From assembly GCA_021464245.1 (NCBI GenBank), contig JADCRB010000039.1, positions 892,119 through 956,118 of the forward strand: a stretch of DNA of 64,000 nt, written 5' to 3'. This DNA comes from Carallia brachiata (Eukaryota; Streptophyta; Magnoliopsida; Malpighiales; Rhizophoraceae). A program made the translations under genes and the position numbers. Shown in pieces: positions 1,582-45,715 of this stretch (positions are counted from its first letter, which is position 1; each line of letters begins with the position of its first letter). The notes beneath the pieces are model-generated. The model saw only the letters and a list, made by a program, of their open reading frames with translations. It did not search any database and was not told the origin of the DNA.

Positions 1582-4078
1582 ATGTCGAAGTATTCTAGTG
1601 ACGCTCAACTGGGTTGTGGCCTGATGGGAGCCATTTATGGTCGCAGTAAATTCCATATCCGAAAAGCAACTGTACATTCCATGCCTATAGAAATCAGCGA
1701 CAATATTGCTGAGAAGCCTCCAGTTAATAATTCAAGTGGGCAGCAGAGCAAATGTGATACTGCTTCCCTTGGCTCTAGTTTGGCTAAACCTTCACCAAAA
1801 CTAGAGCGAAAAGACGCAAGGAAGCACAATTCGGCTCCTCCAATTCCTTTGGTTTCTCTTCGGCAGGATGAAGGTAGAAGAGCCTCAAATACTGCCAGGA
1901 GCTCAATATCGTCTTCGTCGAGCTCATGCCAAACAAATTTAACAACCCAATGAGGCCAAGCCAAGGAGGGGCTGGAAAATTGACTCCACAGAGTTTATTC
2001 CAATAGCAACACCACAACATAATAAATCCAATGATGGCAAGTCCATGTTTCGAGCAACTTCAAGCAATGTATTGCCGACAGGCCAACTTGGCAACTTGTC
2101 ACAGCAGGGCAATGGGAGTGCCTGTAAAATTCAGAGGAATCTTCAGGAAGTAAAATCCACAACAAGGTCCAGTAAAGACCGAAGCCTGTTTGGTGCGAGT
2201 GGTCTCATGGGCAACATTATCAGGCAGCCAAGTGAAATGTCGCGACGGTCTGAAGGTCTGGTGAATACAACGAATCCTGATGTTCTGAAAAACCTTGGAA
2301 ACGAGAAGTACAAGCAGGGAAAATTTGAAGAAGCCTTGGCTTTGTATGATCGATCAATCGCGCTTGATTCTACCAAGGCAACATATAGAAGCAATAGAAG
2401 TGCTGCTTTGACACGATTAGGCCGTCTTGTAGATGCTGTAGTGGAGTGCAAAGAAGCTATTAGGCTTGATCCTTCTTATGAAAGAGCTCGTCACCGCTTG
2501 GCAACATTGTATGTCAGACTGGGAGAAGCAGAGAAGGCATTGTATCAGTACAAACTAGCAGGGCCAATTGCGGACCCCAAAGACATTGCTCAGGCTCAGG
2601 CTCTTCAAAAGCACCTCAGTGGGTGTACCCAAGCTCGAAAATTAAAAGAATGGAAAACCTTATTGAAGGAGACAGCGAATGCAATTTCCTCAGGTGCTGA
2701 TTCTGCTCCTCAGGTTAGCTCTCTCACCACAATTTCTTGCCTATTTATGATTGCAATGGTAAAAACCGTTGTGCATTTTTCAGTTGATTCAATCTGTGTC
2801 AGCTTACCTTAGTTACATTCAGGTATATGCTATGCAAGCTGAGGCCTTGCTGAGGCTTAAGAGACATCAGGATGCCTACACTGCCTACCAAATGGGATCG
2901 AATTTTTGCATGAATTCTTTTACAGAGCTCTTTGGCGTGGCTGCTGGCGCTTACTTCTTAATGACCGGGGCAGAAGTCTACATGGCTGCCGGCAGGTTGG
3001 TAATTAATAACTCGTTTCCAATTCCAAGTCAAGAAAAAGCTATCAGAAGAGAAGGAAAGAGCTAATTATTATCATTGTGATCAATAGGTTTGAAGATGCT
3101 ATCGCAGCAGCCCAGCAAGCAGCTCGACTTGATCCAAGCAACCGAGAAATTTGCAGCATGGTAAAGAATGTTAAAGCAGTAGCATCTGCCAGATTGAGTG
3201 GTAACTTGCTATTCAGGGCATCAAAATTCGCGGAGGCCTGTGTTGCGTACAGCCAAGGACTTGAACATGAGCCCCACAACTCAGTTTTACTATGCAATCG
3301 AGCAGCTTGCCGATCCAAGCTTGGCCAATTAGAAAAGGCTGTGGAAGATTGCACGGCAGCTCTTTACTTGCAACCTAATTATGTCAAAGCCAGGCTAAGG
3401 CGGGCTGATTGTAATGTCAAGGTAATTTAATTAGCACTCAATTGATTTTTTTTTTTTTTTCCAAATTTTTTTACGTTGGCTTCTCTGTTCACTTTGGTCA
3501 TTGGGTGATTATAGCTTCAAAGATGGGAAGCCTGCATTGAAGATTACGAGCTGTTGATAGGAGAAAGTCCAGCAGATGAGGAGGTGGGCCAGGCCTTGAT
3601 CGAAGCCCGTATCAGGCTGAAGAAGCAACGAGGTGAAAACACACGATTGAACAAGATTTGTTTGTATTAACCAAAAAAAAAAAAACAAGATTTGTTTGTT
3701 TGCCAGCAGGGCAAAATTTTTTTTTTTTTTTGATATCTAAAACTTAAACCATCTGGTTTAGGGAGGGAGACAAACTCTTGACTTCTATTTTGCTGGTATA
3801 TGGCTACTGCTATCCAAGATACAAGCTTGTCGGAGCTTAACATAAATCTCTAACTAAACTAAATCAATATTAAGATGCAAAATTGGTAAAAATCAGCAGC
3901 AAATGAGGACATGTCTAATAGTTGTCTCGCTGTTCTCAGGTGGAAACTGAAGACCACCTATACTTGGGGAAAATCGGAGGGTGCGACGTCTATGCCATAC
4001 TTCAAGATGTGCGAGAATAACTCAAGAGTTACAGAAATTCCTGGCGGCGGAGAGGGAGAATTGTTAGATGAAAAATAG
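1582..4078 (+). pseudogene. TTL-type TPR / thioredoxin-like protein gene, decayed (lost thioredoxin core)
   Basis: The encoded protein matches plant TPR-repeat thioredoxin-like (TTL) proteins, scaffold proteins linked to brassinosteroid and osmotic-stress responses. Exons can be read at 1582-2713, 2823-2995, 3088-3421, 3515-~3640 and 3940-4078, with GT-AG introns and consistent phases. A low-complexity Ser-rich N-terminus leads to FIPIATP, then TPR blocks starting LGNEKYKQGKFEEAL and a second set around RASKFAEACVAYSQGLE. Damage: a one-base shift between about 1905 and 1960 separates the N-terminus from the TPR part. Exon 4 reads through KKQRGE into unrelated sequence and stops at 3668-3670. 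The middle of the C-terminal thioredoxin-like domain is missing. Its last exon survives at 3940-4078 (VETEDH..., then MPYFKMCENNSRVTEIPG) but has another one-base shift near 3970. The N-terminal break could be a sequencing error; the loss of the thioredoxin core cannot. Confidence 0.85.
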
Positions 4079-6974: not shown

Positions 6975-7789
6975 TGTAAATGCATTAAAAAAAAAAAAAA
7001 AGGGACTTGGTCATGGTTGGCAGTTGCCGACCTTGAAAATCAAGGTCGGCAATTGCCAATTCAAATATTGCAGGCCACCAACCCTTTTGGGGTTGGTGGC
7101 ACAGTCCACTTTGAAGGCTTATAAATAGGCCCTCACCCCAGTTTAATAGAGATAGATTCAGCAAATCTGTAAACAGAAAAATTCGAAAATTTGAGAGAAA
7201 AAGAAAATTTTGAAAATTTCTCAAGAAAATTTTTCCTTTTTTTACGTACTTTTACTCTGCAGTATACTCTCCTAACTCCTTTTTGAGAGATATTTTAGGG
7301 GTAAGCCCTAAAAAATTTGTTGTTTCCATTTCTAAAATTATTTTTAGGTTTATATTCTCGGATCGCTCTAGATCTAAATTTATGAGAATATAGATCTAAA
7401 AATATCAAATTACTACAAATCCGACTGGGATTAATTCTTATACGGCCCTCAGCAAAATTCAGGCAGCTCATCCGAGAACAAGTCCCTTCGACCCTCGGTG
7501 AAATTAAGTCCGATCGGCTCAAATCAGGTCTCTACGGTTCTTAACCGTAGTCAAAACGTCCAAATCAGATCTGATTTCAGTCTACCCAATTCAAGAAAAA
7601 ACTGTGGAAATTATTTCTGTCAAGATCAAGCTCGTGCAGCCCTTGACGGAATCAAAAAAGGAACACTAATCGGAGGATTTACGGAGATCGACCCCACGTA
7701 AATTTTTTTTTATTTTTACAATTTTTATTTGTAATTTATTTTTGTATTTTCGAGTTTAATTATTTTAGACTCGAAATTTACCCCTTACA
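6975..7789 (+). repeat. R1 5' LTR
   Basis: Starts TGTAAATGCATT and ends CCCCTTACA. It contains a TATA box (tataaata near 7120) and, near its start, a perfect hairpin (ttgccgaccttg / caaggtcggcaa, 7024-7052). It matches 16548-17361 along its whole length with scattered substitutions. Confidence 0.95.
7024..7052. other. Perfect hairpin in R1 5' LTR U3
   Basis: The 12-base arm ttgccgaccttg pairs exactly with caaggtcggcaa across a 5-base loop. The same hairpin occurs in the R1 3' LTR (about 16597-16625) and, with slight mismatches, in both R2 LTRs (about 42737-42778 and 48570-48605). It may act in transcription or be a regulatory palindrome; function unknown. Confidence 0.85.
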
Positions 7790-7812
7790 AATTTTTGGCA
7801 CGCTCAGTGGGA
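7790..7812 (+). other. R1 primer-binding-site region
   Basis: Directly after the LTR comes aatttttggcacgctcag followed by tgggacc. R2 has nearly the same string next to its own 5' LTR, so it is conserved at the expected primer-site position. It is not the initiator-Met type seen in R3. I cannot name the tRNA with confidence. Confidence 0.7.
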
Positions 7813-8355
7813 CCTCTTCACCTCCATCTCTTGTTCCTTAAAAAAAAAAAAAAGGCAAAAAGAAAAGAGCCAAGAAAAAAGAAAAAGAAAAAGAAAAAAG
7901 AAAAAGAAAAACTAGAGAAAAAGACAAAAAAGGTAAAAAAGTAAAAAAAAAAGTAAAAAGTAAAAAGTAAAAAAAAAAATTTTACTGGTGTTCAGCACAT
8001 TAAATGACACCAAAAAAAAGTACAGCTGCCGGTACCAACAAGAAGGCAACGGCTCCATTGCCAGCATCAATTACCCTAACTGGATACGCAGGTCCAGAAA
8101 CCCGAAGACGGACACAATTTCTTACCGTCCAAACCCGACAAAATATTGAAACGGAGAGTCCACAGCTTGCACAATAACAGAACTCTCCCTGACTCTCTTG
8201 CCGCATGGAGGAGTCGATCACCCACCCCGATCGAAGTTGGGGGCAACGCAACAAAGCCCGCTCAACAGAATCCAACTCATTCTATAGAGATCCACATAGA
8301 GGAATCAGAAGAGTTCTCTCCCCCAGTCTTTCGCGGAGCCTCATCTGTTGCTGTT

Positions 8356-9980
8356 ATGATGATCAACACAACCAGTACAGAAGAAAGGATTTCAGAATTG
8401 GAGAACAAGATTTTCAGCTGATCAGAGTCGTGGAGGAAAAAGATCAATAGATCGCCGCTCTCAAAGGAAAAGCCCCGATCCAAATTGATCCCGAAATCCG
8501 CGATGAGCAACCATATCCACCCGATTTCACTCCAGAAGCCACACCAGCTGACGTCTTCTCTGCAGAAAAGCGACCAGGTAGTTCTACACAGCTGCCACCC
8601 TCAAATTCTATAGCTTCGCTATCTGTTCAACAATTGCAGGAAATGATAGCCAATACGATCCGACTGCAACAAGCTACATCCTTCCATGGATCACAGATGT
8701 ACGTCAAACCGTACACCAGACGGATCGAAAATCTCAACATGCCTTTGGGCTACCAGCTGCCCAAATTTCAACAAGTCGACGGACAATGCGATCCCAAACA
8801 GCACATCGCCCACTTCGTTGAAACCTGCAACAACGCAGGGACTTACGGAGATCTCTTGGTGAAGCAGTTTGTTCGTTCACTTAGGGAGACCGCTTTCACC
8901 TGGTTCATAAATCTTGAACCAGAATCGATCGACAGTTGGAAACAGCTACAACGAGAGTTCCTCAACAGATTTTCAGCACTCGAAGGACGGTAAGTATGAT
9001 GGAGCTTACTAGCATCAAACAAAGGAAAGGAGAGCCCGTTGTCAAATACATCAACAGATGGCGTGCCCTCAACTTAGACTGCAAAGATCGTCTGACGGAG
9101 ACTTCTGCCGTGGAGATGTGCATCTAGGGAATGCATTGGGAGCTGTTATACATCCTGCAGGGCATCAAACCCCGAACCTTCGAAGAACTGGCGACCCGTG
9201 CACATGATATGGAGATAAGTATCCAGACTTCCGGAGGCACGGTTCCCATCCAATTGGACCAGCAAGGGGGCAGAAGGGAGATTAAGAAACCCAACAGTTT
9301 CATAAAAGGAAAAGAAGTGATGACTGTTGAAGCCGCACCAGTAAAAGTGGGAGCTAAAACGAAGGTAAATCCTCCGACCCAAATAACTCAGCCAAAACAA
9401 CAGGAAAGGCGAAAGGTGACATTGCGAGAGTTGGAGCAAAAGCAGTATCCATTCCCTGACTCAGACATCCCCGACATTGTTGAACAACTCTTGGAGGCGA
9501 AACTGATCGAACTCCCAGAGTGCAAGCGGCCAAATGAAAAGGATCGAGTCAACGATCCAAGATTCTGCAAATATCACCATATAGTAAGTCATCCAACCGA
9601 GAAATATTTCGTCCTAAAGGAGCTAATCATGAAGCTCAAAAGCCAGAATAAAATCATTCTGGACCAGGAAGGCATAACCTCGGCAAACCAGACCACCATC
9701 ACTTCAAAACCAAAAGAAGAAGTGACACACTGTAAGGAGGAGCCGCTCGACAACAAAAAGTCGACAACGGAGAAGGTATATGAAGCTCTCCAAACCCTTC
9801 TTGCTAACCCTCAGCTGTTTATAGCTTTGCAATCAACAGAAGTGTGGCAAAATCAAGTCAGCAATACTCTCCAGACCTCAGCTGAATCACAGCCATCAAA
9901 TGATTCTAACTCAGCGGAGCAGCAGGCGGACCAAAATCACGTCGGATGTTACTCTGCTATCTCATTTTCAGATGAGGATC
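8356..9980 (+). pseudogene. R1 gag (degenerate)
   Basis: This encodes the capsid-like Gag of a Ty3/gypsy element. The core retrotransposon-gag domain is recognisable at 8634-9127 (PLGYQLPKFQQ, HIAHFVETCNNAG, FTWFINLEPESIDSW, EYINRWRALNLDC-like). The less damaged R2 copy shows where it breaks: early stops or shifts around 8418-8450, a shift near 8970, and a CAG-to-TAG change at 9124-9126 where R2 has CIQGMHW. The C-terminal part (9131-9980) is basic and Gln/Thr-rich without a zinc knuckle I could see. In R1 it cannot give a full protein. Confidence 0.85.
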
Positions 9981-9984
9981 TCCT

Positions 9985-10300
9985 GCTGGGGTCCAAACCC
10001 CACAATCGGCCGTTGTATGTATCAGGCTATGTGAGAGAACAGAAGGTCCGACGTATTCTGATCGACGATGGTCAGCAGTCAATATTATCCCAAAATCCAC
10101 CATAAAGGAGCTCGGCATCGGCATTGATGAATTATCAGACAGCCGCTTGATGATTCATGGCTTTAATCAAGGAGGACAGAAAGCAATTGGGATGATTCGC
10201 TTGGAGCTAACTATCGGTAATCTCACTTCTAGCACTCTATTTCATGATCGATGCACGTACCACATATAAGATGTTGCTAGGACGACCGTGGATTCATGGA
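9985..10300 (+). pseudogene. R1 aspartic protease (degenerate)
   Basis: The frame contains [20 protein letters not shown], the start of a retroelement aspartic protease with D-D-G in place of the usual D-T/S-G. It then shifts by one base after the active-site Gly (about 10070). The rest reads on in another frame ([14 protein letters not shown], then LMIHGFNQGG). This protease would process the polyprotein in an intact element. Confidence 0.75.
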
Positions 10301-11168
10301 AATGGAGTTGTGCTCTCAAGCCTGCATCAGTGCTTCAAGTACTACAATGGTGGCGTTCAAAAGGTCAATGCTGACTTAAAGCCGTTCGATGATGCTGAAT
10401 CACATTTGGCGGATGCAGTCTTCTACACCAACACAGACAATCCGGAGATCATTCCATCAAAAGCTACTTGGATTGGGGGCATCCACAAAAAGGGAAAAGC
10501 TGTCGAAGAACCTGCCAATGCTCAACCCTAGGCTCCAACAAATGAAAAGCTGCCACAGCCTGCTGAACTTCGTCCGAAGGATGTTGCATCTTCAAGCTCC
10601 ACTCCAGTCCTACGCTATGTGCCGAAGTCACGACGCTCAGAAGGTCAACCCCCTTTCTCTTATTGTATTGATCTAAACAGGAGCAAGGACATAGCCAACC
10701 CAAGACAAAAGAGCTGCACAACCTGAAGGAGACTTACACTCTGCCGATACCAAAGATTGAGCCGGTTTTGTCTTCAAAACCATTAAAAGGCTTCGTCAAA
10801 CCACACACGGGGGCAGTCGAAGGCGGCTCACTTCCAGAAAGAAGAACACACGAAGGATTCGATCCTAATGCATACAAGCTCTTGGCCAAGGCGGGCTATG
10901 ACTTCTCAAACCCGAGCACAATGGGTACGCTGCCGTCCACACATGGCGCCGCTTCTCAAACATCACAGTCCCGACCTGGCTTAGGCTATCAGGAGAAGTC
11001 ACCTGTGCGGATCACGCTAAAGAGCCGAAGCCGAGCAGCTGATGCACGTGCCATCACCACCACCAAACAAGACAGGCTTATCCAGTCAAACAAAGAAGGT
11101 GAAGTCAGAGGTCTACATTTCATGTCACAATTAGCGATGAGGCTGAGTCCGACTCATCAGATGGTGAA
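10301..11168 (+). pseudogene. R1 region between protease and reverse transcriptase
   Basis: Continuation of the pol reading frame in broken pieces. The segment starting near 10251 has ARTTYKMLLGRPWIHG, typical of the protease-RT linker in this lineage. Beyond 10530 the frame is interrupted several times and then leads into acidic linker sequence before RT. No separate gene was seen. Confidence 0.6.
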
Positions 11169-13434
11169 GTGAAGGAGGCTCCCCCGGAACTTGAAGATGG
11201 TGGCCAAGCAACTGTTGATGAACTCAAGGAGGTCAATCTTGGCTCTCCGGAAGATCCTCGACCTACATTTGTAAGTGCTTTACTTACTGCAGAAGAAGAG
11301 CAAGAATATGTTCAGGTATTAAGTCAATACAGGGACGTGTTCGCATGGAGTTACAAAGAAATGCCTGGACTTGACCCAAAATTGCGGTGCATCGTCTAGC
11401 AGTAAAGAAGGGTGTTCGTTCTGTCAAGCAGCCACAACGACGGTTCCGCCCGGAACTCATTCCACAAATCGAGGAGGAGGTGAACAAGCTGATCAATGCT
11501 GGCTTCATCCGAGAGGTCACCTACCCAACGTGGATTGCCAACATTGTCCCGGTAAGAAAGAAGAATGGACAGTTGAGGGTATGTGTTGATTTTCGAGATC
11601 TTAACAAGGCCTGCCCGAAAGATGACTTTCCGTTGCCCATAACGGAGATCACAGTCGATGCAACAACGGGTCACGAAGCATTGTCCTTCATGGATGGTTC
11701 TTCAGGCTATAACCAAATCAGAATGGCACCAGAAGACGAGGAGTTGACAGCATTCCGCACCCCAAAAGGTATATACTGCTACAAAGTTATGCCGTTTGGA
11801 TTAAAAATGCTGGCGCCACTTATCAACGTGCTATGCAAAAAATTTTTGATGACATGCTGCACAAGATTGTAGAATGTTATGTTGATGACTTAGTTGTAAA
11901 GACTAAGAAGCGCAAAGACCACCTCGAGGATCTCAAGACGTGTTCGAAAGACTTCGGAGGCATCAGCTCAAAATGAACCCTCTCAAGTGCGCATTCGGTG
12001 TCACATCAGGAAAGTTTCTTGGGTTCGTGGTGCGCCATCGTGGAATCGAAGTTGATCAGTCAAAGGTTGAGGCAATTCAAAAGATGCCTGAACCTAAAAA
12101 CCTGCACGAGCTGCGAAGTCTACAAGGAAAGCTGGCCTACATTCGCCGTTTCATCTCCAATTTAGCTGGGAGATGTCAACCTTTCCATCGGTTGATGAAG
12201 AAGGATGTCAACTTCGAGTGGGACGAAGCTTGCAGCAAAGCCTTTGAGAGCATAAAGAAGTACCTTTCCAATCCACCAGTCCTAGGCTCCAATTCAAGGA
12301 AAGTCGTTGATTCTCTACATTGCAGCGCAGGAAAGATCTTTGGGAGCCTTGCTTGCACAGGAAAACGAGCAGGGAAAGGAAGTTGCCCTGTACTACTTGA
12401 GCAGAACACTAAACGGTCCGGAGCTGAGTTATTCGCCCATTGAAAAGACATGTCTAGCACTGTTCTTTGCCATTGACAAGCTGAGGCACTACATGCAAGC
12501 TCACACGGTACGTCTCATTGCCAGAGCTGATCCTGTCAAATATATCTTATCTAGACCAATCTTGTCAGGACGACTTGCCAAGTGGGCAGTAATCCTACAA
12601 AGCTACGACATTGTCTACGTGCCTCAAAAAGCAGTCAAAGGACAAGCTCTAGCAGACTTCCTTGCAGATCACCCTATTCCGTCCGATTGGGAGTTCACAG
12701 ATGATCTTCCAGATGAAGAGGTCTTTTACATTGAGACACTGCCACCATGGACGATGTTCTTTGATGGTGCAGCAAGGCGTGATGGTGCTGGTGCCGGCAT
12801 AGTGTTTGTCACTCCTCAACGACAAATACTACCATATGCTATCATTCTCGGTGAGTTATGTTCAAATAATGTTGCTGAATACCAGGCTTTGATCATTGGT
12901 CTTCAAATGGCTGTCGATATGAAGATTCCAACTATAGAAGTCCATGGAGATTCCCAGCTCGTCATCAACCAACTTACAGGATTGTATGATGTGAAGAAAG
13001 AGGACCTTGCGCCTTACCATCAACGTGCTCGACAGCTAATGGATGAATTTGAAAGCATCACCTTGGAGCATGTGCCTCGACGAGAAAACACTCAGGCAGA
13101 CGCGTTGGCTAACCTGGCCACTTCTCTTGCAAAGTCAGAAATCCAGGCTACAGTTGTTGCCGTATGCCAGAAATGGATAGTGCCACAGAAGGATGATGAA
13201 GAAACTACAGCAGCCAATACTGTATCTGTACGTCTCGCGGAGGACGAGGATTGGCGCCAACCAATCATTGACTACCTACAGCACGGGAAGCTGCCCGAAG
13301 ATCATCGTCATAAGACAGAAATTCAACGACGAGCTCCCCGCTTCATATATCTCAAGGATGCTCTGTATCGAAGGTCTTTTGATGGAGTTTTACTTCGCTG
13401 CCTAGCAATGAAGAGGCAAAACAGCTCTCGCTGA
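11169..13434 (+). pseudogene. R1 reverse transcriptase, RNase H and second RNase H
   Basis: RT blocks are clear at 11387-12250: FRPELIPQIEEEVNKLI, VCVDFRDLNKACPKDDFPLP, SGYNQIRMAPEDEE, and CYVDD (catalytic YVDD near 11877) in a second frame. The RT-linked RNase H covers about 12300-12670 (SRTLNGPELSYSPIEK, GQALADFLADHP). A second RNase H at about 12740-13110 has FFDGAARRDGAGAGIVF, NNVAEYQALI and HGDSQLVINQ, with the expected acidic residues. This dual RNase H arrangement marks the Tat lineage. Shifts near 11810, 11870 and 12300 split the reading frame. Confidence 0.9.
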
Positions 13435-14490
13435 AGCACATTCTGGTGTTTGTGGCGGACATCAATCGGGCCTAAGTTGCACTTCCAACTCAGAAGGATG
13501 GGATACTACTGGCCAACCATGGTACGTGATTCAATTGAGTTTGCTAAAACTGTCAAGCTTGTCAATTTCATGCGAATTACATACATCAACCACCGGAGCC
13601 ACTGCATCCAACTGTCTCATCCTGGCCCTTTGAAGCTTGGGGTCTCGACTTAGTGGGGCCCTTGCCAAAGTCATCCCTGGGTCACCTGTACATCCTCGCA
13701 GCAACCGACTACTTCTCAAAATGGGTCGAAGCCATTCCACTTAGAGAGGTAAAGAAGGAGCATGTTGCCAATTTCATCCGGACTCAGCTGATCTATCGCT
13801 ATGGAGTCCCTCGATTCATCATCACTGATAATGGTAAGCAGTTCTACAACAGCTTGATCGACAAGCTCTGCGAGAAGTTCAAGTTCAAGCAGTACAAGTC
13901 ATCCATGTACAATGCCCCAGCAAATGGCTTGGCTGAAGCATTCAACAAGACCTTATGCAACCTGTTGCGGAAGGTAGTCTCTAAATCCAAAAGAGATTGG
14001 CATGACAGAATTCCGGAGGCATTATGGGCGTATCGTACAACTTACCGGACTCCAACACAGGCGACGCCATACTCACTTGTCTACGGTGTCGAAGCAATAC
14101 TGCCGTTGGAAACACAGATTCCATCCTGCGCATGGCTGTTCTGGAAGGACTCACACAGGAGGAGAATGCTCGCCTACGTCTGGATGAGTTAGAAGCCCTG
14201 ATGAAAGGAGGCTCGAAGCACAACAGCAACTTGAGTGCTACCAAGCCCGGCTCACCAACACGTTCAACCGCAGGGTCCGCCCTCGATCTTTTCAAGTTGG
14301 AGACCTTGTTCTTGCAGTGCGACGGCCCATCAACATGAAGCATCGGCCTGGTGACAAGCTTACTTCCAAATGGGACGGGCCATACTTAGTGCAGGAGGCC
14401 TACACTCACAACGCTTACATGCTGTCAGACCAAGAAGGCGTCCGAATCGGCCCAATCAATGGTAAATTTCTGAAACAGTATTATGTGTAA
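13435..14490 (+). pseudogene. R1 integrase (degenerate)
   Basis: The zinc-binding region around 13440-13600 is eroded (several expected Cys/His residues and frame lost). The catalytic core at 13620-14130 is readable: WGLDLVGPLPKSS, ATDYFSKWVEAIPL, YGVPRFIITDNGKQF and NGLAEAFNKTL, giving the D, D and E positions. The frame shifts near 14110. The C-terminal end (PGDKLTSKWDGPYLVQEAYTH ... FLKQYYV) ends with taa at 14488-14490. No chromodomain follows, in line with Tat rather than a chromovirus. Confidence 0.88.
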
Positions 14491-14495
14491 ATATG

Positions 14496-14531
<36 letters not shown>

Positions 14532-14860
14532 AAAAAATAAAAAAAATAGAAAAAAAAAGAAAAAAAGAAAAAACAAGTTCGGAAGTCCCGATATGAAAAT
14601 CCAAGCGAAAATCCAAACCCGAAAATCAAAGCCCAAACACTTGAGCCCAATCAGAAAACACAAGCCCAACTCAAAGCCCGAAAACTAATCAGATCCAAAA
14701 CCCAAACACTCAACCCAAATCCAAGTCCAAAATCCAAAAACCAAAGTTAAAAGCCCAAACACTCGACTCAAATCCAATCCAAAAAAAATCCAAACCCAAA
14801 AAAAATTCTAAGTTCCAGACACAGTTCAGAACCCAAGTTCAAAATCCAATCCAACTCTTG
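14491..14860 (+). repeat. A-rich then A/C-rich spacer between integrase and WOX ORF in R1
   Basis: A long a-homopolymer tract (about 14496-14575) is followed by irregular repeats of aatccaa / cccaaac type words. The equivalent region in R2 (45160-45540, opposite strand) has the same composition with clearer ~50-bp repeats. Probably untranslated spacer ahead of the captured gene, possibly its promoter and 5' UTR. Confidence 0.75.
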
Positions 14861-14991
14861 GCCCGCATGAGTATAAACTGTGAACGGCCAAAAAATATAA
14901 AAGCGACGGAGGGTTTGAGTCTGAAACTCAACATCAGTCTCAACCAATCTTCACCACATACCAAGACCTTTGCTCATCTGCCACAAGAAAG

Positions 14992-15603
14992 ATGGAACCA
15001 GTTGCAAAACCTCAAGACAAGGGAGAAGAAAGGTCACCTCGCACAAAGTGGCAACCAACCATGGCACAACTGGAAATTTTGGAGGAAGTCTTCCACAACA
15101 ATGGAGGTATTATTCCTAATGCATCTCAGATTTACTAACTTGTCTCACGATTGCGCCTACTCAGGGCAATCGAAGGAAAAAATGTGTTTTATTGGTTCCA
15201 GAATCGGAGAAGCAGGAAGAAACCAGCACTGAAAACTGCTTCTTCCAAAACACAGTCTGTCGTTCCTATAGTAGATCTCACTAGTACAGCTTCACCCTCA
15301 AATAAAGCAGGCCCGAGTTCTACCACTGCAATGGTCTCTCCACGATATGTTCATCAAAGCCGTAGTCTATGGGAGCAAGCATACTGGTCTTGGTGGTCTC
15401 ACGGAGTCAGCCAAGGGTTCATCCCTCCTAGGTACTTAAGTCTAAGAGGAACTTTTCCAGCAGAAATGAGTCATTCCGGCAAAACTTTGCATCTCTTTCC
15501 AGAATATTCCAACAGCATCAACCAGCCGGAAAGCGACATCAACATCATCGGCCCACTAGATGAGGCCGAGCTTGACTTGGAGCTGCGCCTCGGGCCCCAC
15601 TAG
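14992..15603 (+). pseudogene. WUSCHEL/WOX-type homeodomain protein captured by retroelement R1 (one in-frame stop)
   Basis: The 204-codon frame opens MEPVAKPQDKGEERSPRTKW and enters a WOX homeodomain at about residues 18-82: WQPTMAQLEILEEVF, then IEGKNVFYWFQNRRSRKK, the diagnostic third helix of the WUS clade. Near the C-terminus TLHLFPEY (about residues 165-172) fits the WUS-box pattern TL-x-LFP. The end, LDLELRLG, is an EAR-like LxLxL repression motif. So all three signatures of WUS-class repressors are present in the right order. WUS proteins maintain stem cells in meristems. No intron is seen in the homeodomain, as expected if captured through RNA. One codon in the homeodomain is TAA (15136-15138) where R2 has CAA. 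The ORF lies between integrase and the 3' LTR. It could be transcribed from the LTR or its own spacer; that is inference. Confidence 0.88.
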
Positions 15604-15627
15604 AACGGTTGATAAGATAAGGTGCAA

Positions 15628-15712
15628 CGACTTTGGCAGCACACGGCAACGACTTCTGCAGCACACGGCAACGACTTCTGCAATACACGGTAACGACTTC
15701 CGTGACGCACGT
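15628..15712 (+). repeat. Minisatellite, about 3.5 units of ~23 bp, 3' of WOX ORF in R1
   Basis: The phrase cggcaacgacttctgcagca recurs with small changes. In R2 a shorter version occurs at about 44430-44480. It lies in the likely 3' untranslated part of the captured gene. Confidence 0.8.
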
Positions 15713-15890
15713 CAGCCGCTGCCTCTTTTGTCTCTTATGCGGGAAAGGGACATGGATGACCCTACTTGATTTTGCGTACCTTCTTTTTGACTTTTCAAAA
15801 AAAAAAAAAAACTCTTTATGTTATGTATATATATCCTGCATGTCCGAGCCGTAATACTCACCCCTCAGCTCTTCTTCTTCTCAAAAGAAA

Positions 15891-16476
15891 ATGGCTAGTC
15901 TTTGCACTTGTCTCAGGAAGTTCTTTGATCAAGAAGTTGGAGGCGCACGAGCTAAGAAAAGAAAGAGTAGTCTTCCTCGAGGGATCCCTAAAAGCCCTCG
16001 AAACTCAGTCTCCAACGTCATCGGTGTCATGGAGTTCCAACTACTCTCCTTAGTTCACATCTACCACAGAGGGATGAGACACTGCAATCATCCTAATTTT
16101 CCTTTAGATGCGACGACGTACAGGGAAGTTCCAACTACTCTTCTTACGTCGGAGCAGACTCGGGAGTCATCACTACAGTCAGTCTCTCTGTGTGCAGGTC
16201 TTGAAGTGCTGGGCCTTTTTCTTGGGGAGGTTCAAGTTCTTTGCCTACCGGATCATCCTCACCAGAGCTTTGGAACTTCAAAGAACCTTTACCAGCCTTT
16301 GCGAGTTATGGAAGCTCGAACTCACCTGGAGCCAAAACTTCAATTTTTATATTGGCTGGGCTGCTAACTTTCTCAAGATCGTATCAGTTTCTTATTGCGA
16401 TCCAACAACAGCAGACATTTTTAAAGATAGAAGACTCCAAGATTCAATGTTCATCAGGACGTTTCCAAGTTTTTAA
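15891..16476 (+). pseudogene. R1 3' ORF, unrecognised, frameshifted
   Basis: A frame starting MASLCTCLRKFFDQEVGGAR is followed by basic residues and runs to about residue 105 before shifting frame near 16200. The continuation (AFFLGRFKFFAYRIILTRAL ... YIGWAANFLKIV) lies in the next frame and stops at about 16476. R2 carries the same protein as one open frame of 206 codons (42874-43494, minus). I do not recognise the family. The N-terminus is Cys-containing and basic; the C-terminal half is hydrophobic and aromatic. It may be coding, or the frame may be accidental within the element's 3' UTR. Confidence 0.5.
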
Positions 16477-16530
16477 CTGGACTTCAAGACTAAGTTCGGA
16501 TCATTTCTGTAAAATTCTTCCTTACCGACC

Positions 16531-16547
16531 CTTGAAGTGGGGGCATT
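16531..16547 (+). other. R1 polypurine tract region
   Basis: cttgaagtgggggcatt lies directly before the 3' LTR. R2 has the matching string (opposite strand, 42827-42843). This is the expected position of the plus-strand primer. Confidence 0.8.
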
Positions 16548-17361
16548 TGTAAATGCATTTAAAAAAAAAAAAAAGGGACTTGGTCATGGTTGGCAGTTGC
16601 CGACCTTGAAAATCAAGGTCGGCAATTGCCAATTCAAACATTGCAGGCCACCAACTCTTTGGGGTTGGTGGCACAGTCCACTTTGAGGGCCTATAAATAG
16701 GCCTTCACCCCAGTTCAATAGAGATAGATTCAGCAAATTTGTAAACAGAAAAATCCAGAGAATTTGAGAGAAAAAGAAAATTTTGAAAATCTCTCAAGAA
16801 AATTTCTCTTTTTCTTACGTGCTTTTACTCTGCAGTATACTCTCCTAACTTCTTTTTGAGAGATATTTCCGGGGTAAGCCCCAAAAAATTTGCTGTTTTT
16901 ATTTCTAAAATTATTTTTAGGTTTATATTCTCAGATCGCTCTAAATCTGAATTTATGAGAATATAGATTTAAAAATGTCAAATTACTACAAATCCAGTTG
17001 GGATTAAGTCTCATACGGCCCTCAGCAAAATTCAGGCAGCTCATCCGAGAACAAGTCCCTTTGATTCTCGGTGAAATTAAGTCAGATCGGCTCAAATCAG
17101 GTCTCTGCAGTTCTTAACCGTAGTCAAAACATTCAAATCAAATCTGATTTCAGTCTACCCAGTTCAAGAAAAAGCTGTGGAAATTATTTCTGTCAAGATC
17201 AAGCTCGTACAGCCCTTGACGGAATCAAAAAAGGAACACTAATCGGAGGATTTACGGAGATCGACCCACGTAAATTTTCTTTTATTTTTACAATTTTTAT
17301 TTGTAATTTATTTTTATATTTTCGAGTTTAATTATTTTAGGATCGAAATTTACCCCTTACA
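16548..17361 (+). repeat. R1 3' LTR
   Basis: Same length and ends as the 5' LTR (814 vs 815 bases), including hairpin and TATA box. Scattered substitutions between the two LTRs show the insertion is not brand new. Confidence 0.95.
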
Positions 17362-20262: not shown

Positions 20263-21261
20263 TGTAAACAATTAAAAAAAATAAAAAGAAAAGGTTGAAA
20301 AGTAAACCCACGTGCTGCATGACATTGAGCATCTTCAAATTTGATTGACAAAATCCATGCATTTCCTTCAAACTTGGCTGGCAGATTTGTGCATTTTCAA
20401 ATTAGGATGGCAAATCCATGCACCTGCTACATTTTCTTCAAGATTGGCTGGCTAAGTTAGGTGGAATAGTAAATTCCTTTGGCCTATAAATAGATCGATC
20501 CAGGATCTTACAAAGGCATTTGGTAAAAAAAAGAACCAAGTATAGAAAGTTGCAAAAATTTCAATTTCATTTGTATTACCACCTTTCTCTTACATTTTTA
20601 TACTCTGAGTGTATCCTTCCCCCAATCATTCAGTAAATCTATAAACAGAAAAATACAGAGAATTTGAGAGAAAAAGAAAATTTTGAAAATTTCTCAAGAA
20701 AATTTCTTCTCTTCCTACGTGTTTTACTCTGCGGTATATTCTCCTAACTTCTTTTTGAGAGATATTTCAGGTATAAACCCCAAAAAAATTGTTATATCCA
20801 TTTCTAAATTTATTTTTGGGTTTGTATTCTCCGATCGCTCTAGATTTGGATTTGTGATAATATAGATCTAAAAATATCAAAATATTATAAATCCGGTTGA
20901 GATCAAGTCTCATACAACCCTCAGCAAAGTTCAGGCAGCTCATCCGAGAATAAATCTCTTCGACTCTCAGTGAAATCAAGCCAGATCGAGTCAGATCAGG
21001 TTTATGTTGTTCTTAACCGTAGTCCAAACGTTTACATCAGATCTAGTTTCAGTACTACCCAATTCAAGATAAAACTTTGAAATTTATTTTCGTCAAAATC
21101 AAGCTCGTGCAGCCCTTGACAGAATCACAAAGAAACACTAATCAGAGGATCTACGAAGATCGATCCCACGTAAATTTTTTTTATTTTAAATTTTTATTTG
21201 TAATTTGTAATTTGTATTTTCGATTCTAACTGTTACAGGCTCGAGATTTACGCTCGTTACA
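20263..21261 (+). mobile_element. Solo LTR nested in R3, related to the R1/R2 LTR family
   Basis: Bounded TG...CA and flanked by perfect 5-bp duplications cacgt (20258-20262 and 21262-21266). The right ~620 bases (from about 20635) match the R and U5 parts of R1/R2 LTRs. The left ~370 bases are different: no hairpin, but repeated gctggc-aaatccatgca words. So this is a separate subfamily sharing U5 but with another U3. No internal region is present, implying LTR-LTR recombination after insertion. It has its own TATA (ctataaata near 20483). Confidence 0.92.
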
Positions 21262-22534: not shown

Positions 22535-23524
22535 NNNNNNNNNNNNNNNNNNNNNNNNNNNNNNNNNNNNNNNNNNNNNNNNNNNNNNNNNNNNNNNNNN
22601 NNNNNNNNNNNNNNNNNNNNNNNNNNNNNNNNNNNNNNNNNNNNNNNNNNNNNNNNNNNNNNNNNNNNNNNNNNNNNNNNNNNNNNNNNNNNNNNNNNNN
22701 NNNNNNNNNNNNNNNNNNNNNNNNNNNNNNNNNNNNNNNNNNNNNNNNNNNNNNNNNNNNNNNNNNNNNNNNNNNNNNNNNNNNNNNNNNNNNNNNNNNN
22801 NNNNNNNNNNNNNNNNNNNNNNNNNNNNNNNNNNNNNNNNNNNNNNNNNNNNNNNNNNNNNNNNNNNNNNNNNNNNNNNNNNNNNNNNNNNNNNNNNNNN
22901 NNNNNNNNNNNNNNNNNNNNNNNNNNNNNNNNNNNNNNNNNNNNNNNNNNNNNNNNNNNNNNNNNNNNNNNNNNNNNNNNNNNNNNNNNNNNNNNNNNNN
23001 NNNNNNNNNNNNNNNNNNNNNNNNNNNNNNNNNNNNNNNNNNNNNNNNNNNNNNNNNNNNNNNNNNNNNNNNNNNNNNNNNNNNNNNNNNNNNNNNNNNN
23101 NNNNNNNNNNNNNNNNNNNNNNNNNNNNNNNNNNNNNNNNNNNNNNNNNNNNNNNNNNNNNNNNNNNNNNNNNNNNNNNNNNNNNNNNNNNNNNNNNNNN
23201 NNNNNNNNNNNNNNNNNNNNNNNNNNNNNNNNNNNNNNNNNNNNNNNNNNNNNNNNNNNNNNNNNNNNNNNNNNNNNNNNNNNNNNNNNNNNNNNNNNNN
23301 NNNNNNNNNNNNNNNNNNNNNNNNNNNNNNNNNNNNNNNNNNNNNNNNNNNNNNNNNNNNNNNNNNNNNNNNNNNNNNNNNNNNNNNNNNNNNNNNNNNN
23401 NNNNNNNNNNNNNNNNNNNNNNNNNNNNNNNNNNNNNNNNNNNNNNNNNNNNNNNNNNNNNNNNNNNNNNNNNNNNNNNNNNNNNNNNNNNNNNNNNNNN
23501 NNNNNNNNNNNNNNNNNNNNNNNN
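22535..23524. other. Assembly gap, 990 N
   Basis: Unknown bases inside R3 between protease and RT. Apparent open frames across it on both strands are artefacts. A real chromovirus would have the end of protease and the start of RT here. Confidence 1.
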
Positions 23525-24850
23525 CAACTGACCACAAGATCGATTTGGTACCCGGTTCCAAACCACCAGCACAAGCCTCATATTGCATGAATCTGCTAGA
23601 GCTGGTAGAATTGAGGAAGCAGTTAATAGAGCTGTTAGATGGTGCCCCGGTGTTGTTTCAGAGGAAACACAATGGCTCCCTACGGATGTGTGTTGATTAC
23701 AGGGTTCTGAATAAGGTGATGGTGAAGAACAAGTACTCTATCCCATTGATAGCGGACTTATTTGACAGGCTAGCGAGAGCCTCGTATTTCACTAAGCTGG
23801 ATCTGCGGTTTGGTTATTGGCAGGTCAGAATTGCAGAAAGAGCTGAATGGAAAACCACGTGCATTATACGCTATGGCTCCTACCAATTCCTAGTGATGCC
23901 ATTCAGTTTGACTAATACCCTTACTACTTTTTGTAATTTAATGAATGATATTTCATGACTTTATCGATCATTTTTTGGTTGTCTATCTGGATAATATTGT
24001 TGTATAGTGAGTCCTTGGAGGATCACTTGTCCCAACTGAGATTGGTGTTGTCTAGGTTGAGAGAGCACCAATTGTATGTGAAAAGGAAAAATGTGAGTTT
24101 GCCCGGCGTGAGATAATGTTCCTTGGGCATAGGGTGAGTCAAGGACAAATTAAAATAGACGAGAGAAAAGTCCAGGCAATAATAGAGTGGATGGCCCCTA
24201 CCAAGGTTTCTGAATTGAGATCCTTTCTTAGTTTGTTTAATTACAATAGGAAGTTTGTGCAGGGTTACTCTAAAAAGGTGGCCCCATTGGCAGACTTACT
24301 CAAGAAAGATAGACCATGGAGGTAGACTACAGATTGCCAAGAAGCCTTTGACAAGTTGAAGGCAACGATGTCCACGAAGCCGGTCCTAAGACTGCCTGAT
24401 TTCGAGTTGCCTTTCAGTGTGCTAACTAACGTCTCAGATAAAGCTATTAGAGGTGTGTTGGTGGAGGAAGGCCACCCCATTGCCTATAAGAGCCGGAAAC
24501 TCAATGATGTAGAGTAGCAGTACTCAGCCCCTAAGAAGGAGATGCTGGCAGTGGTGCATTGCCTTCGCACTTAGAGGGTATATTTGCTGGGAACTAGATT
24601 TGTGGTTCGGACTGACAATGTGGCTAACACATTCTTTCATATCAGAAGAAGCTTCCTGCACGGCAGGCGCGATGGCAGGTATTCTTGGCTAAGTATGATT
24701 TTACTTGGGAATACAAGTTAGGAAGGCACAATTAGGTGACATATGCCCTAAGTTGCCGACAAGTGTAAGAGACGGTTGCTGCCCTCACTTAAGTGCAGAA
24801 TGACTTGCTAGACAAAATCAAGGAGCAGGCCACACATGATGCCATATATC
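23525..24850 (+). pseudogene. R3 reverse transcriptase and RNase H (degenerate)
   Basis: RT blocks: GSLRMCVDYRVLNKVMVKNK, IADLFDRLARASYFTKLDL, FGYWQVRIAE, YQFLVMPFSLTN, and near 23975 a damaged YLDN catalytic box (normally YLDD). The RT end reads [15 protein letters not shown] and [20 protein letters not shown]. RNase H follows from about 24330 (DFELPFSVLTNVSDKAIRGV, YKSRKLNDVE). Several stops interrupt it, notably Trp codons changed to tag after RPWR, after DVE and in the LRT-RVYLLG block. Confidence 0.88.
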
Positions 24851-35020: not shown

Positions 35021-38000
35021 ATGGAGGCAATTTGGCGGCCATTTATGAAGCTGCCTGCACGGTACTACGCTGTCACGCTCTTCTTCTTATTCCTTCTTGT
35101 CGGCGCGTTTTACTCCACGCGCATCCGGGACTCCAATGTAAGTACCAGCACGCGCACAACGTCAATTCTTGGTCTAATTTTCCACCACTAATGACTGATC
35201 TGGCATCTTGATTCTTCCCTTTTTCTTTTCTTTGACACTTTTTTTTTTAAATTAAAAAATTATATAAATACAAAATTTAAATATAAAATAATAATTTAAA
35301 TTTATTACTTATTGTATAATAAATTTAATATAATTAATAATTTAAATTTAAATAATAATTAGATTTTGTTATTTTATGACTCAAAGCATGTAATTAATTT
35401 TAGACAAATGACAATGTAAATTATGACTTTTTTTTAATATTTGGTAAGTATAAATAAAATAAAATTAAAGTGATATAAATTGATTAATAATTAAATTTAA
35501 AGGAATATAAAAAATAAATTATTTAAATATTGCAGTGTATACGTGTTTTCATTTTTCCAAACTTATACTCAAGTAGTGGTCATCCATTTTTATTAATCTT
35601 TTCGGGGCGTCGGCATGGTGTCTTGACTCTAAGAAGATTCCATGGCCGAATTTATGCCGCGGGCTTCGGATTCATTTATAAAAATAGTAAAAATTTGGTG
35701 GGCATATAATTTTTTTATTATATTTACACGTATTTTTTATGTAATTATGTATGTTTTTTATATAATTATAATAATAAAAATGATATAAAAAATTATATTA
35801 TTATTTTTTATTTTTTATTTTTCTTTTATAATTACATAAAAATATCTATAATTATAAAAAATATATATATGTTGATACAATAAAAAAAAATTATATACCT
35901 ATATAATAGTAGTGGTCATCCATTTTTATTAATCTTTTCGGGGCGTCGGCATGGTGTCTTGACTCTAAGAAGATTCCATGGCCGAATTTATGCCGTGGGC
36001 TTCGGATTCATTTATAAAAATAATAAAAATTTGGTGGACATATAATTTTTTTTATTATATTTACACGTATTTTTTATGTAATTATATACGTTTTTTATAT
36101 AATTATAATAATAAAAAATAATATAAAAAATATTATTATTTTTTATTTTATATTTTTTTATAATTATACAAAAATATCTAAAATTATAAAAAATATATAT
36201 ATATATATATTGATACAATAAAAAAAATTATATACCTATATAATAAAATCTTATAAAAAATCGACACGTCTTATGTTTTCCACGTGTGTGGGTACCACCA
36301 TTTGAAGTTATTGCAGTTCAGCGGGCCGCAGCTGGTTGGTTTGTTGACTTTTTCTGTCATTCATTCGAGTTTTCGTTCGAGCTGCAGGGCGTTTCTGGCC
36401 GTTCGACGCCGAAACCAATCGTAGCCGAGGAGTCGATCAAAGAATTCCACACGTCCATTGATGAAATCCCAAAAAATCCCCGTCACCCAATCGAGACACC
36501 ACTCAACTGCAGCGCTCTCGACCACACACGAACATGCCCCGCCAACTACCCCACCACCTTTACTCCGGATTCAGACGGTCCACAGCCTCCCACGTGTCCG
36601 GACTACTTCCGTTGGATCCACGAAGACCTCCGCCCGTGGGGCCGCACAGGCATCACGAGAGAGATGGTGGAGAGTGCCAACAAAACAGCGCTTTTCGATT
36701 AGTGATCGCGAACGGCAAAGCCTACGTGAAGAAATATCGGAGGGCGTTTCAAACCAGAGATGTTTTTACGCTGTGGGGAATCCTACAGTTGTTACGGAGG
36801 TACCCAGGTAAGCTGCCCGACTTGGAGTTGATGTTCGATTGCGTCGACTGGCCGGTCGTGAAGTCAAGAGACCATAGCGGGCCCGGTGCTCCGGCGCCAC
36901 CGCCTCTTTTCCGATACTGTGGAGATGATGATACGCTGGATATCGTGTTCCCTGATTGGTCCTTCTGGGGATGGTAAAGAGCAAAGATCTTTTCATTGGA
37001 TCATTGCTTATGTAATAAATAATGGCTGTCTCTGTAAATTTTGACGCTGGTTTGATTAAAATAACGTAGGCCTGAGATCAGTATAAAGCCATGGGAGCAA
37101 TTGCTGAAGGATTTAGAAGAGGGCAACAACAGGACTAGATGGATGGAGAGGGAACCTTTTGCTTATTGGAAGGGAAACCCGGCTGTTGCCGTGACAAGAA
37201 AGGACCTTATGAAATGCAATGTCTCGGAAAAACAGGACTGGAATGCTCGCCTATATGCCCAGGTATTTGCAAGCTCCTTAATCTTCATTGTTCTGTCCTA
37301 GCCCTTTTGATGGCCTCTAAAGTTGCTTTTTCGGAATCAGAAAAAAATAAAAATAAAAGAAAGTTGCTTTTTGTATTATTCATGTTGCTTGCTAATTGTT
37401 TCTTCCATTTCTTTACTTACATGGTCCAACGTTATCAGTTAAGCATTGGTTCATAATCAGAAAATTTAATTAGTAGAATGATGTTATGAGACATTTGCAT
37501 CCTATATGTCATGACATTTGTATCCTAATTGTTATGAGATTTCCCTTTTTTTTTTTTTTTTTTAGAGATGAAAAAAATTATACCGCATATATAACGGTTA
37601 TCAAAATTTTAGACTTATGTCCTATATTTTATAAGATATGATTGTTTTATATTTACATAAAAAGTAAAAAGATGTTATATTTATAAGTTCTGAATAGTTG
37701 CTACGTTTTTCCTATCAGTTTGCCTCTTGTTTTCTCGACATCCATGTATTTTTGCAACATGTCGTCAGTAAGGAGACCACAAAGTTTGTCTCTTTTATGA
37801 AAATTTGTAATCTATTTCAGGATTGGATTCGAGAATCACATGAAGGATACAAGCAATCTGACTTAGCGAGCCAATGCGTTCACAGGTTTACAAAAAATCC
37901 AGAAGTCACCGTTTTTCATTTTTTTCTGTGCTAAATAATTAAGGTCCCAGTCTCTCTGACATTGGCAAATTTATTCAGGTACAAGATCTACATTGAAGGG

Positions 38001-38682
38001 TCTGCATGGTCAGTCAGTGAAAAATACATTCTTGCCTGCGACAGCGTGACACTACTTATAAGACCCCATTACTATGACTTCTTCACGAGAAGTTTGGTGC
38101 CGATTCACCACGACTGGCCCACAAAGCATGATGACAAATGTAAATCAATTAAGTTCGCTGTCGACTGGGGCAACAGGCACAAAGAGAAGGTAACACTCTA
38201 ACCAAGTTAAAATTTTTTGAATGAGTGGGTGGAGGCAGTTGAGGACTCAACAATAGCTTTGTTTATGTTTTGGCCTCAAAATATACGGATATGTTGACAT
38301 ACTATCCGTGGATTGGGCAGGCACAGAACATTGGGAAGGCAGCTAGTCAGTTCATTCAACAGGACTTGAAGATGGAATATGTCTATGACTACATGTTTCA
38401 TCTGTTGAACGAGTATGCAAAGCTCTTGACATTCAAGCCATCTATACCTCCTAAAGCCGTTGAACTGTGTTCAGAAACAATGGCTTGCCCAGCCAATGGG
38501 TTAGAAAAGAAGTTCATGGTGGAATCCTTGGTAAAAGGTCCTGCAGACTCAAACCCATGCACCCTTCCTCCCCCGTACGATCCCGCTTCTCTTAATGCCA
38601 TAATAAGGAGAAAAGAAAATTCAATAAACAAGTGGAGCTATGGGAGAAGAATTACTGGGATAAGCAAAGTAAGCAGCCCTAG
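35021..38682 (+). CDS. GT-A: O-glucosyltransferase, Glyco_transf_90 (rumi/POGLUT-like), two frame breaks
   Basis: Six exons: 35021-35137, 36388-36973, 37070-37262, 37821-37885, 37979-38189, 38321-38682, all GT-AG and phase-consistent. The protein is a type II membrane enzyme of the secretory pathway. A short cytosolic N-terminus is followed by one membrane segment (YAVTLFFLFLLVGAF) and a luminal GT90 domain. Family blocks: CPDYFRWIHEDLRPW, DVFTLWGILQLLRRYPG, LFRYCGDDDTLDIVFPDW, ISIKPWEQLL, AYWKGNP, YKIYIEGSAWSVSEKYILAC, HYYDFFTRSLVP, VYDYMFHLLNEYAKLL. GT90 enzymes move glucose or xylose from UDP-sugar; the plant acceptor is not known to me. Breaks: one base missing at about 36690 (after NKTA) and one near 38630, shifting the tail. 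The ATG at 35021 is used because the paralogues' ATG is TTG here. It may be functional if the breaks are sequence errors. Confidence 0.8.
35573..36240 (+). repeat. 336-bp tandem duplication in GT-A intron 1
   Basis: 35573-35908 is repeated at 35909-36240. Both start gtagtggtcatccattttt and contain cggggcgtcggcatggtgtc. Copies differ at only a few positions, so the duplication is recent relative to the surroundings. Confidence 0.92.
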
Positions 38683-42001: not shown

Positions 42002-42826
42002 TGTAAAACGTAAATTTCGAGCCTGTAACAGTTAGACTCAAAAATACATAAACAAATTACAATAAAAAATTGTAAAATAAAAAGAAATTTATGTGGGGTC
42101 GATCTCTGAGTAGATCCTCCGATTAATGCTCCTGTTTTTGACTCCGTCAAGGGCTGCACGAGCTTGATCTTGACATAAATAATTTTCACAGCTTTTTCTT
42201 GAACTGGGTAGACTGAAACTGGATCTGATTTGGACGTTTTGACTACGGTTAAGAACCGCAGAGACCTGATCTGAGCCGATCTGGCTTAATTTCACCGAGG
42301 GTCGAAGGGACTTATTCTCGGATGAACTGCCTGAATTTTGCTGAGGGCCGTATGAGGATTAATCCCAGCCGGATTTATAGTAATTTGATATTTTCATATC
42401 TATATTCTCATAAATTCAGATCTAGAGCGATCCGAGAATATAAACCTAAAAATAACTTTAGAAATTGAAACAGCAAATTTTTTGGAACTTACCCCTGAAA
42501 TATCTCTCAAAAAGGAGTTAAGAGAGTATACTGCAGAGTAAAAACACGTAAGAAAAGGAGAAATTTTCTTGAGAGATTTTAAAATTTTCTTTTTCTCTCA
42601 AATTCTCTGTATTTTTCTGTTTACAGATTTGCTAAATGTTTTTTATTGAACTGGGGTGAGGGCCTATTTATAAGCCCTCAAAGTGGACTGTACCACAAAC
42701 CCCAAAGGGTTGGTGGCCTGCCATATTTGAATTTGCAGTTGCCGACCTTGATTTTCAAGGTTGGCAACTGCCAACCATGACCAAGTCCTCTTTTTTTTTT
42801 TTTTTTAATTATAAAATGCATTTACA
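42002..42826 (-). repeat. R2 3' LTR
   Basis: 825 bp, TG...CA on its own strand, with TATA box (tataaata near 42665, minus strand) and the U3 hairpin near 42737-42778. Confidence 0.95.
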
Positions 42827-42843
42827 AATGCCCCTACTTCAAG
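42827..42843 (-). other. R2 polypurine tract region
   Basis: Read on the minus strand this is cttgaagtaggggcatt, one base different from the R1 tract and directly next to the 3' LTR. Confidence 0.8.
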
Positions 42844-42873
42844 GGTCGGTAATGAAGAACTTTATAGACGTGA

Positions 42874-45700: not shown

Positions 45701-45715
45701 TTCACAGTTTATACT

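Follow-up and report, generated by a model that had tools for sequence, protein, structure and literature searches.

A WUSCHEL-clade homeobox gene carried by two Tat-lineage LTR retrotransposons in Carallia brachiata

Two related LTR retrotransposons, R1 and R2, lie on opposite strands of the window, the whole stretch of 64,000 nucleotides of Carallia brachiata DNA analysed here, and both contain a homeobox gene of the WOX class (Table 1). In R1 this gene is located between the integrase and the 3' LTR, downstream of gag, RT, RNase H, archaeal-type RNase H and integrase domains in that order, and is followed by an orphan accessory frame, ORF-B.

Table 1. Features of elements R1 and R2, with positions in the window
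Feature	Positions	Strand	Basis and remarks
R1, Tat-lineage Ty3/gypsy LTR retrotransposon	6975-17361	+	10,387 bp; R2 homology ends at LTR edges, LTR alignment, flanks, domain order
R1 5' LTR	6975-7789	+	TATA-like TATAAATAG at 7120
R1 gag	8394-9547	+	stops and frameshift; tblastn with R2 gag frame; Pfam PF03732 25.7 bits on 8451-8993
R1 pol from RT on	11375-14490	+	RT, RNase H, archaeal-type RNase H, integrase, integrase C-terminus; split into several frames
Candidate internal promoter, TATA-like TATAAAAG	14896-14903	+	96 nt before R1 WOX ATG (95 nt in R2)
R1 WOX ORF	14992-15603	+	203 codons plus stop; TAA at codon 49 (15136-15138)
Homeodomain of R1 WOX ORF	15043-15234	+	about codons 18-81; Pfam stretch 17-77, alignment to WUS
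WUS box TLHLFP of R1	15484-15501	+	codons 165-170
EAR-type LDLELRL of R1	15571-15591	+	codons 194-200
ORF-B of R1, orphan accessory ORF	15891-16494	+	frameshift and stop; end = end of R2-matching part
R1 3' LTR	16548-17361	+	LTR alignment
R2, second independent insertion	42002-48670	-	own LTR pair and target-site duplication; gag frame open
R2 5' LTR	47936-48670	-	internal deletion
R2 gag	46617-47870	-	one open frame, 417 codons; Pfam PF03732 57.2 bits
R2 WOX gene	44491-45022	-	CAA at codon 49, homeodomain intact; Pfam 47.6 bits
Three tandem copies, spaced 360 bp, in R2	43349-44368	-	repeat ORF-B leader (with TATA) and first codons
ORF-B of R2	42874-43494	-	206 aa, intact
R2 3' LTR	42002-42826	-	LTR alignment

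An archaeal-type RNase H between RNase H and integrase is described as marking the Ogre/Retand elements within the Tat lineage (PMC6317226), and this arrangement was found in R1, where PF17917 is followed by PF13456 (88 bits) and PF00665, with a further pol match to PF00078 and one to the integrase C-terminus (PF24626) below its cut-off. A Pfam scan of all antisense frames of at least 45 codons in the pol-3' LTR regions of R1 and R2 (the longest 91 and 111 codons) gave one chance-level match and no TRP28 (0 of 27 frames); a Retand-type antisense TRP28 ORF was thus rejected, and since no such frame was found we file the family as Tat, not Retand. R1 is a decayed copy, because gag and pol are broken at several places, and an intact gag-pol is absent from both elements, most of pol being missing in R2. 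The two LTRs of R1 differ at 48 of 813 sites (K2P 0.062), and GACA flanks the element on both sides: a single base separates it from the TG of the 5' LTR, and it follows the CA of the 3' LTR immediately.

In R2 an open gag, the WOX homeodomain and ORF-B remain but most of pol is missing, R1 positions 9722-14321 having no match in R2; the element is perhaps a non-autonomous gag-bearing derivative, or else the product of a simple deletion. Its LTRs differ at 21 of 706 sites (K2P 0.031) and are flanked by AAGT in the same placement, again with a single base between the 5' copy and the TG; counted without that base, the flanking repeats of R1 and R2 match in 4/5. A tblastn search of the window with the WOX ORF recovered the second copy running from 45022 to about 44491 (-), at 81% identity over 141 aa plus a tail piece. 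The two elements are colinear over the end of the integrase, the spacer, the leader and the ORF (85% over R1 14322-15414), with downstream pieces at 78-87%.

R1 and R2 are separate insertions, because homology stops at the LTR edges, the flanks differ (GACA and AAGT) and the LTR distances between the elements (K2P 0.093-0.122 across the four pairs) exceed those within R1 and within R2. A larger segmental duplication as the source of both copies was rejected, since homology ends at the LTR edges. From these distances it follows that the two lineages split before either insertion and that the WOX gene was present before the split. By blastn, the gene is carried by both of the family elements in the window that have an internal region, which makes a rare accident unlikely, as far as two elements in one window can show. 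The WOX gene is therefore very probably ancestral and family-wide, and looks like a lasting part of the element family rather than an accident; the proposal of the earlier note that an element had captured the gene and kept it gained support from its presence at the same place in two independently inserted elements. At a substitution rate of 1.3e-8 per site and year, the insertions would be about 2.4 (R1) and 1.2 (R2) million years old. A relic third LTR of the same family, more diverged (16-18% from the R1 and R2 LTRs), was also observed at 20628-21251 (+), and may point to a long period of activity of the family.

The R1 ORF, which begins with an ATG in good context (AAAGATGG) and terminates in TAG, encodes in a single frame, from N- to C-terminus, IEGKNVFYWFQN, the WUS box TLHLFP (from residue 165) and LDLELRLG (from residue 194), the protein ending in the EAR-type sequence LDLELRLGPH. 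The earlier note had described exactly this order of homeodomain, WUS box and EAR motif, in a WUS-clade gene within a Tat-type LTR element, and the motifs, the Pfam scores of both copies, the archaeal-type RNase H and the flanking LTRs all bear it out; what it overlooked is the in-frame TAA at codon 49, within the homeodomain, which leaves the R1 frame open only from 15139 onward. Read with the stop as X, the frame matches the Pfam Homeodomain family PF00046 at 41.6 bits (cut-off 22.9), whilst the halves flanking the stop, scored separately, reach 15.4 and 22.0 bits, both below the cut-off. When the 125 residues after residue 78 were shuffled 200,000 times, TLxLFP arose in 29 shuffles, LxLxL within the last 12 residues in 1081, and both jointly in none. 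The nearest annotated proteins are WUSCHEL and other flowering-plant WOX proteins (best E 2.4e-12); all annotated-protein matches (8 of 39 candidates at E <= 10 in one search, 26 of 105 at E <= 1 in another) contain a homeodomain, most being named WUS, WOX or homeobox, and no element-borne relative was recognised among them. Relatives were also sought elsewhere, in viral contigs (2 stretches matched, 0 confirmed), in prokaryote genomes (22 matched, 0 confirmed) and in plasmids (none). The ORF at 14992-15603 is almost certainly a WUS-clade WOX gene, of the class of master regulators by which plant stem cells are maintained.

Both copies are damaged, in different ways. The R1 copy is dead as written, and the whole protein cannot be made from it because of the TAA at codon 49. 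In R2, 86 bp including the WUS box are deleted after codon 141 and the frame is shifted, with the EAR codons persisting downstream of the deletion with one in-frame 6-bp difference; splicing was rejected as the origin of this gap, which does not begin with GT and was treated as a deletion. Since the lesions differ between the two copies, their common ancestor most simply had neither. Across codons 1-141 there are 43 single-base differences, of which 20 are C-to-T or G-to-A in the direction R2 to R1 and 11 in the reverse direction, an asymmetry that would fit more decay in R1, as in methylated DNA.

Among solved structures, the best matches of the R2 homeodomain are WUSCHEL and STENOFOLIA: it aligns to the Arabidopsis WUS homeodomain without gaps (69.7 bits), and to STENOFOLIA at 61.7 bits with a gap needed at an extra loop residue. 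Compared with other homeodomains, WUS has Y54 inserted where helix 1 ends (PMC7203112), and the extra residue in the loop between helices 1 and 2 is present in R1, R2 and all 11 WUS-branch rows of our alignment, compared with 1 of 18 other rows (from Spinacia, named WOX2). The base-readout residues of WUS (R38, Q89, N90, R94) and a main cluster of its backbone contacts (K82, N83, Y86) (PMC7203112) are kept at 7/7 positions in R2 and 6/7 in R1 (R38K), and 25 of the remaining 57 homeodomain positions in R2 match WUS; lesser backbone contacts listed in the same source are altered conservatively in both copies (K92R, R96K, R100K). A structure model of the R2 protein shows three helices with pLDDT 93-96 over residues 21-70, and low confidence beyond about residue 80.

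A tree was built from R1, R2 and 29 of 30 protein hits (31 rows, 64 columns, bootstrap not settled). The element pair sits on a long branch, and the best tree places it next to P0032, a single outgroup row that is itself on a long branch, with support 65/73; grouping the pair with the 11 WUS-branch rows was not rejected by the AU test over these 64 columns (p 0.157). The end of helix 3 in the element copies, NRRSRKK, resembles NRRSRSR of P0032, a likeness that we take to be convergence, given the WUS box and EAR motif. The element gene might conceivably be a mosaic. Judged by its motifs, membership of the WUS clade is solid, and the extra loop residue and the EAR sequence favour descent from WUS itself over another WUS-clade gene; the WUS-like source named by the earlier note stood at the level of the clade, whilst the tree did not place the pair with WUS itself. 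Terminal EAR sequences in plant WUS rows are SLELRLN (Humulus WUS, the Arabidopsis row P0017 and Cannabis) and SLELTLN or SLELSLN in others. The element gene shares with WUS and its clade IEGKNVFYWFQN, the loop residue, the main contacts, the WUS box and a terminal LELRL EAR in the same order, and its protein begins with MEP, as does P0017, an unnamed row that we take to be WUS. It differs in helix 3 (NRRSRKK compared with NHKARERQ), in homeodomain identity (at most about 52% to any host WOX found, 29 rows compared) and in length, the element protein being 203 aa and the WUS-branch rows 289-317 aa, except for the unnamed P0014 (162 aa) and P0009 (227 aa). It also differs from WUS in being one uninterrupted exon inside a retrotransposon, with both copies broken. 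WOX genes of cotton reportedly have two to four exons (PMC5501002), and the capture of an mRNA, as had been suggested, fits the absence of introns, although sense introns would be lost in any case when an element replicates via RNA.

The region between pol and the 3' LTR also contains the candidate promoters and ORF-B. The leader holding TATAAAAG is common to R1 and R2, and a second TATA-like sequence, TATATATA at 15826, lies 65 nt before the ORF-B ATG in R1; the tandem copies of the ORF-B leader in R2 represent a possible promoter amplification. ORF-B is under purifying selection between R1 and R2, and in this comparison it is more clearly constrained than the WOX ORF. It has no Pfam family, none of 155 protein candidates reached E <= 10, and among solved structures there was a single match, at E 1.3; on these results the idea that ORF-B is another gene captured from the host was rejected, and its single-sequence fold was unusable (pLDDT 40). 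We read the region as two putative accessory genes with their own promoters, as in Grande, whose accessory gene reportedly encodes a nuclear protein expressed from its own promoter. TGAA, TAAT, TTAATGG, G-box and TGAA pairs showed no excess in six regions (lowest p 0.267 in 30 region-motif tests). This argues against simple self-activation by way of WUS sites in the LTRs and leaders, and autoregulation through such sites in the LTR or internal promoters was rejected.

Taken together, the reading that we prefer, with a probability of roughly two in three, is that of a family-borne WUS-clade accessory gene that is expressed and acts on host gene activity. Before the divergence of R1 and R2, a Tat-lineage family would have taken up a WUS-clade homeobox coding sequence, with spliced RNA as the probable source, and would have kept it as an accessory gene in sense orientation, placed beside ORF-B, after integrase and ahead of the 3' LTR. 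On a long plant RNA, ORFs in a downstream position are seldom translated, and a separate WOX transcript is therefore likely, which may start from a TATA-type promoter belonging to the gene itself, 95-96 nt ahead of the ATG. The 203-aa protein would enter the nucleus and bind WUS-type TGAA sites through the kept base-contacting residues, its WUS box and EAR tail would recruit co-repressors, and, as predicted from these motifs, it would act as a small nuclear repressor that chooses DNA sites much as WUS does. Such a protein could shift host gene activity in the cells that express the element, most plausibly shoot stem cells, the source of the germline. That the gene was translated and useful to the element at some time is somewhat favoured, whereas its use specifically in stem cells is a tentative suggestion. 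The germline of Arabidopsis originates from shoot stem cells, and of the 54 TE families raised in 7-day shoot stem cells 26 are LTR retrotransposons, with TE expression lower in embryonic and 35-day stem cells (PMC7560203). Stem cells appear the most attractive site because the germline descends from them and LTR retrotransposons are prominent among the raised TE families. It is rather doubtful, if conceivable, that the element uses a WUSCHEL-like regulator to make or keep cells stem-like, or to lower defence, and so reaches the germline more often, as a mobile element that manipulates plant cell fate.

Evidence that selection kept the WOX ORF is mixed. The comparison of dN/dS with gag that the earlier note had proposed gave 0.60 for the WOX ORF (p 0.09; 173 shared codons of two decayed copies), below 1 but not significantly so, whilst the same test showed clear constraint on gag (0.16, p 2e-27) and ORF-B (0.33, p 8e-5). 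Wrong frames of the WOX ORF gave 0.63 and 1.33, and the test therefore has little power here. Across codons 1-78 the copies differ by 2 synonymous changes (of 49.8 sites) and 6 non-synonymous changes; 9 of 234 sites differ, when post-insertion decay alone predicts 10.9. This is lower than the divergence of the two R1 LTRs from the R2 3' LTR (70 and 79 of 811 sites; p 0.016 and 0.003), the R2 LTR used in this test, the shorter R2 5' LTR (70 and 77 of 699) being left out. Recombination could be the cause of the low divergence of codons 1-78, synonymous sites included. Codons 79-141 differ at 34 of 189 sites, more than the LTRs. When a dead homeodomain was allowed to drift in simulation to 51.6% identity, by substitutions only, absence of a stop together with 7/7 contacts was reproduced in 2 of 5000 runs.

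The strongest rival to a functional accessory gene, unlikely though it appears, is that the captured WUS-clade sequence was copied along unused and inherited by both copies as a passenger. A dN/dS that is not clearly below 1, two broken copies and LTRs without enrichment of WUS sites are all consistent with this. It sits less easily with a homeodomain that is at most 52% identical to the 29 host WOX rows yet keeps all seven main contacts in R2, and with a frame that is open save for one lesion per copy and has both WUS box and EAR motif in R1. The rarity of the homeodomain outcome under dead drift also argues against it, although the divergence could predate capture and have arisen in the host gene.

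A different role for an expressed protein is improbable but worth setting out: WUS protects stem cells against viruses, and the element protein might oppose host WUS at its sites or partners, for example by lifting stem-cell protection against viruses and mobile elements. The kept set of DNA contacts in an otherwise short and diverged protein, and the WUS box missing from R2, would suit such an antagonist; however, R1 keeps both WUS box and EAR motif, and the deletion in R2, which shifts the frame, resembles decay. Less probable still is that the conserved stretch was kept as DNA or RNA (packaging, promoter or enhancer) rather than as protein. Synonymous changes are few too in codons 1-78, and the leader and TATA are likewise conserved, but a recognisable homeodomain, WUS box and EAR motif are encoded in order. 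Plant LTR elements are known to capture host genes, most of which occur in one copy or a few copies of the element (PMC7264820), yet a stray WOX retrocopy dropped into R1 alone, as the chance insertion that the earlier note had named as its own refuter, is refuted by R2, and two independent captures have a negligible probability given the same sequence at the same place with a match running through both flanks.

We therefore return to the family-borne accessory gene and its known counterparts. The position between pol and 3' LTR is shared with the accessory ORFs of other Tat elements, namely TRP28 in Retand, the plant mobile domain in Ogre and the nuclear protein in Grande. Retand differs in that its conserved ORF is antisense and encodes TRP28, its pol-3' LTR region having no sense ORF with a known domain according to the main text of PMC11963269, whereas the frame described here is a sense homeodomain of clear host ancestry. 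Another counterpart is the AlkB-type m6A demethylase of Phalaenopsis Gypsy elements, a host-type regulatory gene fixed in a Ty3/gypsy lineage, with 38 and 23 consensus sequences in two species and activity in vitro (PMC9289625); this is an RNA demethylase whose activity was tested, not a developmental transcription factor. The YgdH/LONELY GUY (cytokinin) domain in Citrus LTR elements (PMC9289625) is likewise of a growth-regulation gene type, but it is an enzyme-family domain, and any link to WUS biology would be indirect reasoning on our part.

Plant LTR elements commonly carry extra ORFs of varied kinds, 314 similarity groups being reported for Ty3/gypsy (PMC6317226), and a survey of 121 angiosperm genomes described 15 uncommon domains in LTR elements (PMC9289625). 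The nine named in the main text of that survey are PMD, G-patch, AIR1, DUF1409, YgdH/LONELY GUY, L26, B3, ArgoL2 and AlkB-type 2-ODD; homeobox is not among these nine, the other six being shown in a figure only. No prior report of a WOX gene in a retrotransposon appeared in titles and abstract openings among the matches listed, and the strings 'homeo' and 'WUS' are absent from the main text of PMC11963269, PMC6317226, PMC7264820, PMC9289625, PMC3726574, PMC12786077 and PMC11728184, a check of main text only, the full extra-domain lists of PMC6317226 and PMC9289625 being supplementary files. Accessory genes of this kind are thus known, whilst a WUS-class developmental regulator as a family-borne gene is new as far as these searches go. 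The extra genes known in plant LTR elements are mostly of unknown use; if the preferred reading is true, the family would offer a concrete, testable example of a mobile element that influences the cell lineage from which gametes descend. The WUS network may then have a mobile competitor or partner, and element genes may be among the WOX genes counted in some genomes.

Elsewhere in the window, exons of a TPR-repeat protein, presumably TTL-like, lie at 1943-3430 (+), a few kb before the start of R1. A glycosyltransferase family 90 gene (Pfam PF05686) is present twice, at 36465-38749 and 54444-58777 (+), with R2 between the two copies. A long run of N extends from about 22540 to 23530, and frames on its far side, up to 23958, resemble by eye the reverse transcriptase of another retrotransposon.
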